DNA from: an uncultured Planctomycetia bacterium
GTDB taxonomy: Bacteria > Planctomycetota > Phycisphaerae > FEN-1346 > JAACEH01
Direction of reading: 5' to 3'
NCBI GenBank assembly: GCA_903929765.1
Contig: CAIYVX010000055.1
Location: forward strand, 1 to 64,000
DNA: 64,000 nt
A model generated the notes under the pieces. That model did no database searches. It was given only the letters and a program-made list of their open reading frames with translations, and was not told where the DNA came from. Shown piece by piece: positions 29,218-35,309 of the stretch; the first letter of the stretch is position 1, and each line of letters opens with the position of its first letter. Both the position numbers and the translations under genes were made by a program.

Positions 29218-29294
<77 letters not shown>

Positions 29295-35010: not shown

Positions 35011-35039
35011 TTGACGTAATTCGCGACGGCTGCTACTAT
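35011..35039 (+). promoter_or_regulatory. Sigma-70-type promoter of the tRNA-Thr-like gene
   Basis: TTGACG at 35011-35016, 17-base spacer, TACTAT at 35034-35039. The expected start is near 35046-35047, at the proposed 5' end of the tRNA-Thr-like gene. Confidence 0.65.
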
Positions 35040-35046
35040 TATGTCC

Positions 35047-35104
35047 GCTGGTCTCCGGTTTTGTAAACCGGTGGTTGTCGGTTCGAGTCCGACCGCCGGC
35101 TCCA
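35047..35104 (+). pseudogene. tRNA-Thr(TGT)-like gene apparently lacking the D arm
   Basis: The 3' half is canonical: anticodon stem CCGGT/ACCGG with loop TTTGTAA (anticodon TGT), T arm GTCGG-TTCGAGT-CCGAC, acceptor strand CGCCGGC, discriminator T and encoded CCA. Immediately 5' of the anticodon stem are only GCTGGTCT bases; GCTGGT can pair with the acceptor 3' strand using two G-T pairs, leaving no room for a D arm. An alternative 5' half starting at 35029 pairs poorly and lacks the GG of a D loop. Either a deletion has removed the D arm, an assembly gap occurred, or this is a remnant. Order Thr-Tyr matches a common bacterial tRNA cluster. Confidence 0.6.
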
Positions 35105-35147: not shown

Positions 35148-35176
35148 TTGACGTTTGAGGCCTGGGTTGCTAGAAT
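35148..35176 (+). promoter_or_regulatory. Sigma-70-type promoter of tRNA-Tyr
   Basis: TTGACG at 35148-35153, 17-base spacer, TAGAAT at 35171-35176; expected start near 35183, giving a leader of about 40 bases before the tRNA. The -35 hexamer and spacing are the same as at the tRNA-Thr-like promoter. Confidence 0.65.
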
Positions 35177-35224: not shown

Positions 35225-35309
35225 GGGCGGATTCCCGAGCGGTCAAAGGGGACAGACTGTAAATCTGTTGGCTCAGCCTTCGGAGGTTCGAATCCTTCTC
35301 CGCCCACCA
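35225..35309 (+). tRNA. tRNA-Tyr (anticodon GTA)
   Basis: Class II tRNA. Acceptor GGGCGGA pairs with TCCGCCC; anticodon stem ACAGA/TCTGT with loop CTGTAAA gives GTA; a long variable arm (GGCTCAGCC) and T arm GGAGG-TTCGAAT-CCTTC follow. CCA encoded at 35307-35309. Confidence 0.95.

Follow-up and report, generated by a model that had tools for sequence, protein, structure and literature searches.

A D-armless tRNA-Thr(UGU) gene in a planctomycete genome is probably a decayed spare copy

The window, which is the whole stretch of 64,000 nucleotides analysed here from the draft genome of an uncultured planctomycete, contains a tRNA-Thr(UGU)-like gene that lacks a D arm. We consider it probable (about 0.72) that this is a redundant tRNA-Thr(UGU) gene that recently decayed by internal deletion, and not a new kind of bacterial tRNA. 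A decayed spare copy is the most likely explanation because an intact tRNA-Thr(UGU) gene exists elsewhere in the genome. The gene adjoins the same tRNA-Tyr that accompanies tRNA-Thr(TGT) in related genomes, and it is best read as what would be the native copy of a Thr-Tyr-Gly tRNA cluster after an internal deletion. The initial annotation had left a deletion, an assembly collapse and a novel small RNA side by side as explanations; the intact copy and the conserved cluster support the deletion best, and the other two are less well supported.

Structure of the gene

The features of the locus, all on the forward strand, are as follows.
35011..35039, +, sigma-70-like promoter TTGACG-17-TACTAT with TG before the -10 element (sequence; order relatives have cluster promoters of similar spacing)
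35047..35104, +, D-armless tRNA-Thr(TGT)-like gene or pseudogene, CCA encoded (sequence, Rfam alignment, chance estimates)
35047..35052, +, 5' acceptor strand GCTGGT, partner GCCGGC at 35095-35100, two G-U pairs (sequence, chance estimates)
35053..35054, +, 2-nt connector CT standing where positions 8-26 with the D arm would be (sequence, comparison with relatives)
35055..35071, +, anticodon arm CCGGT-TTTGTAA-ACCGG, anticodon TGT (sequence, Rfam alignment)
35077..35093, +, T arm GTCGG-TTCGAGT-CCGAC (sequence, Rfam alignment)
35148..35176, +, separate promoter-like site of tRNA-Tyr, TTGACG-17-TAGAAT (sequence)
35225..35309, +, intact tRNA-Tyr(GTA), conserved downstream neighbour in the Thr-Tyr-Gly cluster (ARAGORN, Rfam; cluster in G001, G003 and G004)

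Read directly from the window, the gene also carries a variable region (TGGTT) between the anticodon and T arms, and after the T arm a single C, the 3' acceptor strand, a T as discriminator and the encoded CCA. The acceptor and anticodon stems are joined by CU alone, which confirms the absence of the D arm that had been noticed at the outset, and the sequence and the Rfam alignment bear out the description of the anticodon arm, T arm, 3' acceptor strand and CCA as intact. The earlier account of the acceptor stem holds for the 3' strand and needs correction for its partner: the 5' strand is GCTGGT, giving six pairs of which two are G-U, and position 7 would be a C-C opposition.

Models of tRNA expect four arms, and the gene falls outside them. 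ARAGORN calls only a tRNA-Arg(CCG) at 29218 and the tRNA-Tyr at 35225 in the window, passing over the Thr gene, and when introns are allowed it finds no cloverleaf tRNA-Thr at the locus, so that the full-length alternative fold envisaged by the initial annotation did not emerge. The Rfam tRNA model RF00005 aligns end to end with 35047-35101, with a deletion at the D arm, and its score of 23.7 bits is below the gathering score of 29 bits. When forced into three arms, the RNA folds at -20.2 kcal/mol with pair probabilities of 0.68-0.87. A hidden or intron-split D arm was considered and rejected, the surrounding 4 kb containing no D-arm-like 5' half, as was a group I or II intron or other Rfam RNA at the locus, for which there were sub-threshold matches only.

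The promoter-like site ends 7 nt before the first G of the gene. The site is real and well placed, as had been claimed, and the further statement that transcription starts exactly at the 5' end of the gene is an inference. Against the background of the window, the probability of a site matching 9 of 12 promoter positions 4-20 nt ahead of a randomly chosen point is about 0.003 (0.3%), that of six acceptor pairs with a connector of 0-10 nt about 0.08 (7.8% of places), and that of an exact GCTGG about 0.03 (3.4% of places); on the assumption of independence, promoter and GCTGG have a joint probability of about 1e-4. By itself the acceptor strand exceeds chance only moderately and is not compelling; acceptor strand and promoter together are well beyond chance.

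An intact copy and a conserved cluster

An intact cloverleaf tRNA-Thr(TGT) gene lies in the same assembly on contig C41 (G000:C41:8744-8818; Rfam 76.9 bits), providing the redundancy that a deletion pseudogene presupposes. The initial annotation had regarded the window gene as essential and called for a search for a second tRNA-Thr(TGT); the search succeeded, and the gene is not essential in that sense. Over the 50 nt that they share, the two copies are 92% identical, and all four differences preserve pairing, one of them as a double change from C-G to T-A in the T stem. Four random changes keep pairing in 20-35% of trials, and this retention is weak evidence. The genome (G000) is a draft of 3.83 Mb in 116 contigs, 96% complete with 1.4% contamination. 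Nothing points to C41 as a contaminant: its tetranucleotide profile correlates with that of the window (r 0.73) and of the window's 32-48 kb part (r 0.76), a fit that is compatible with common origin and not proof of it, and the C41 phosphoketolase has a counterpart of 75% identity in a genome of the same order.

The bacterial tRNA-Thr(UGU) cluster has the gene order thrU-tyrU-glyT-thrT-tuf. A cluster of tRNA-Thr(TGT), tRNA-Tyr and tRNA-Gly(TCC) is found in the nearest relative, from the same family (G001), and in two relatives from the same order (G003 and G004), in the last of which tRNA-Thr(GGT) comes next. The Thr gene of each is a normal cloverleaf preceded at 11-18 nt by a promoter of the TTGAAA-~17-TATAxT type. 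The window gene occupies the position expected of the ancestral copy, adjoining tRNA-Tyr as in all three, and its first five acceptor bases, GCTGG, are identical to those of the G001 and C41 genes. Around the tRNAs, G000 shares with G001 and the other relatives no protein-gene neighbours that might date the duplication, and the G001 orthologue of the ADP-ribosylglycohydrolase downstream in the window has no tRNA beside it; synteny therefore rests on the tRNAs alone.

The usual place of tRNA-Gly(TCC) after tRNA-Tyr is empty in the window. The only such sequence found in the genome is a 41-nt 5' part that stops where the anticodon arm ends (C33:67178-67218; L082:7179-7219), which is followed by unrelated ORFs, one with an HTH_36 domain, and searches of the assembly yielded no corresponding 3' half. 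An integrated element may have split this tRNA-Gly gene, or a gap in the assembly may conceal the intact gene.

How the D arm may have been lost

In the proposed course of events, an ancestral tRNA-Thr(UGU) of the Thr-Tyr-Gly cluster would have suffered a net loss of about 17 nt in its 5' half, an ancestor-like GCTGGCGTAGCTCAATGGTAGAGCACCGGT becoming GCTGGTCTCCGGT. A possible route is slippage between the two TGG repeats of the ancestor-like sequence together with loss of AGAG. With the C41 paralogue supplying the UGU anticodon, selection on the window copy would be weak or absent. Its own promoter probably still drives its transcription, and the resulting RNA is likely to be unstable or hardly aminoacylated, as would befit a tRNA pseudogene.

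Several observations count against decay, namely the pairing-preserving differences (weakly), the intact promoter, CCA and remaining arms, and the fact that the C41 copy and the G001 Thr gene are more alike than either is to the window copy. The intact promoter, CCA and other arms are unlike those of a long-dead gene, which suggests either that the deletion is recent or that some function has been retained.

Alternative explanations

The main rival, which we regard as unlikely, is an attachment-site scar, whereby an integrase-borne element would have recombined inside the anticodon arm and the 3' part of a tRNA-Thr gene would have remained, the upstream acceptor strand and promoter being due to chance or contributed by the element. 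Fragments beginning at the anticodon arm do occur in this class, including Thr(TGT) fragments in G026 and G055, that of G026 lying about 33 kb from an intact Thr gene on the same strand; in the nearest relative, 43 kb separate a Cys fragment from an intact tRNA-Cys, and in Bradyrhizobium (L160) a fragment of this sort, with a chance GCTGG upstream, sits beside a tyrosine integrase. Such a fragment should adjoin an integrase, however, and no PF00589 match is present on the window's contig (C55) or on C41, while the upstream neighbours of the window gene are ordinary, encoding DUF4159 and TPR proteins. The window gene also possesses both its own promoter and a matching 5' acceptor strand, a combination that is improbable by chance on the joint estimate given above, yet the Bradyrhizobium fragment too has its GCTGG.

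It is less likely again that the gene encodes a working D-armless tRNA-Thr(UGU) or tRNA-like small RNA under selection, either charged by ThrRS and translating or acting uncharged as a regulator or decoy. The intact promoter, CCA, discriminator, anticodon loop and T arm speak for this, as do the stability of the forced three-arm fold and the finding that the HisS, EF-Tu and ribosome of E. coli, all unmodified, accept an engineered D-armless tRNA-His, which is degraded unless pnp is mutated to relieve decay by PNPase (PMC11551756). Against it, the connector of the window gene is 2 nt as compared with 4-5 nt in the examples discussed in that paper, and the intact C41 copy makes a D-armless tRNA unnecessary. 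A sequence-specific pattern scan for the D-less Thr layout in 397 genomes of the class, in which the genus is represented by G000 alone, was positive for G000 only, the other ten matches being ordinary Thr tRNAs or non-tRNA sequence; conservation of the kind expected of a functional D-armless tRNA is thus absent from this set. Among the loci listed by a scan of a genome collection, at least two were attachment-like fragments carrying GCTGG, and a scan of viral contigs returned coding-like sequence and a single tRNA 3' fragment. G000 encodes one EF-Tu and one full-length ThrRS, with no dedicated or adapted version of either visible for a D-less tRNA, unlike nematode mitochondria, which have a second EF-Tu (PMC4033280); such dedicated factors are not strictly required, however (PMC11551756). 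Function of the RNA is conceivable on these analogies and not indicated, and its strictest form, a natural D-armless bacterial tRNA-Thr(UGU) that is transcribed from its own promoter, charged and used alongside the normal copy, is very improbable.

An artefact of assembly or strain mixture, with a normal D arm in the living cell, is also very doubtful. The assembly is apparently metagenome-derived and fragmented, but the locus differs from its only similar copy, that on C41; a collapse of the two would not give the sequence of the locus, and the rest of the assembly offers no source for the junction.

Relation to known tRNAs

The closest known relation of the window copy is bacterial thrU-type tRNA-Thr(UGU), which it matches in anticodon arm, T arm, CCA, promoter spacing and tRNA-Tyr neighbour, differing in the reduction of positions 8-26, including the D arm, to 2 nt and in an acceptor stem of six pairs. 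With D-armless metazoan mitochondrial tRNA-Ser (PMC9427863, PMC4013460) it has in common a three-arm layout without a D arm, whereas it is bacterial and chromosomal, of Thr type, shorter in its connector and duplicated by an intact cloverleaf; the two are not homologous as a type. The engineered mini HisT, a D-armless tRNA-His in E. coli, is likewise bacterial and otherwise intact, but it is man-made, 62 nt long, with a longer connector and demonstrated activity (PMC11551756). Integrase attachment-site fragments share the tRNA identity from anticodon arm to CCA, to which the window gene adds a promoter and a matching 5' acceptor strand on a contig without an integrase.

As a decayed spare gene the locus has little import, except that annotation tools silently drop such genes. 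Were the RNA stable and charged, it would parallel the engineered D-armless tRNA in nature and, going by PMC11551756, be the first natural bacterial D-armless tRNA, at odds with the statement in that paper that all known bacterial tRNAs are cloverleafs.

Other tRNA fragments

In the nearest relative, an intact tRNA-Cys (L239, C105:135300-136100) and a 3' fragment starting from the anticodon loop (L238, C105:92000-92800) lie 43 kb apart on the same strand, which looks like an element integrated in tRNA-Cys. The window's genome itself contains, at G000:C45:30470-30530 (L048), the 3' part of a tRNA with a long variable arm (Leu- or Ser-like) that has no 5' half and ends in CTTA instead of CCA, possibly an attachment-site fragment. 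ARAGORN calls tRNA-Thr(TGT) at two loci whose 5' half is without normal D-arm sequence (L059 in G040 and L069 in G008), and in each genome another Thr(TGT)-like match lies on the same strand at a distance of 33-41 kb; both calls are therefore probably attachment-site fragments miscalled as tRNAs. The Bradyrhizobium fragment (L160, near position 786), a D-less Thr(TGT) 3' part with a chance GCTGG as 5' strand that adjoins a tyrosine integrase, shows that attachment sites can mimic D-armless tRNA genes.
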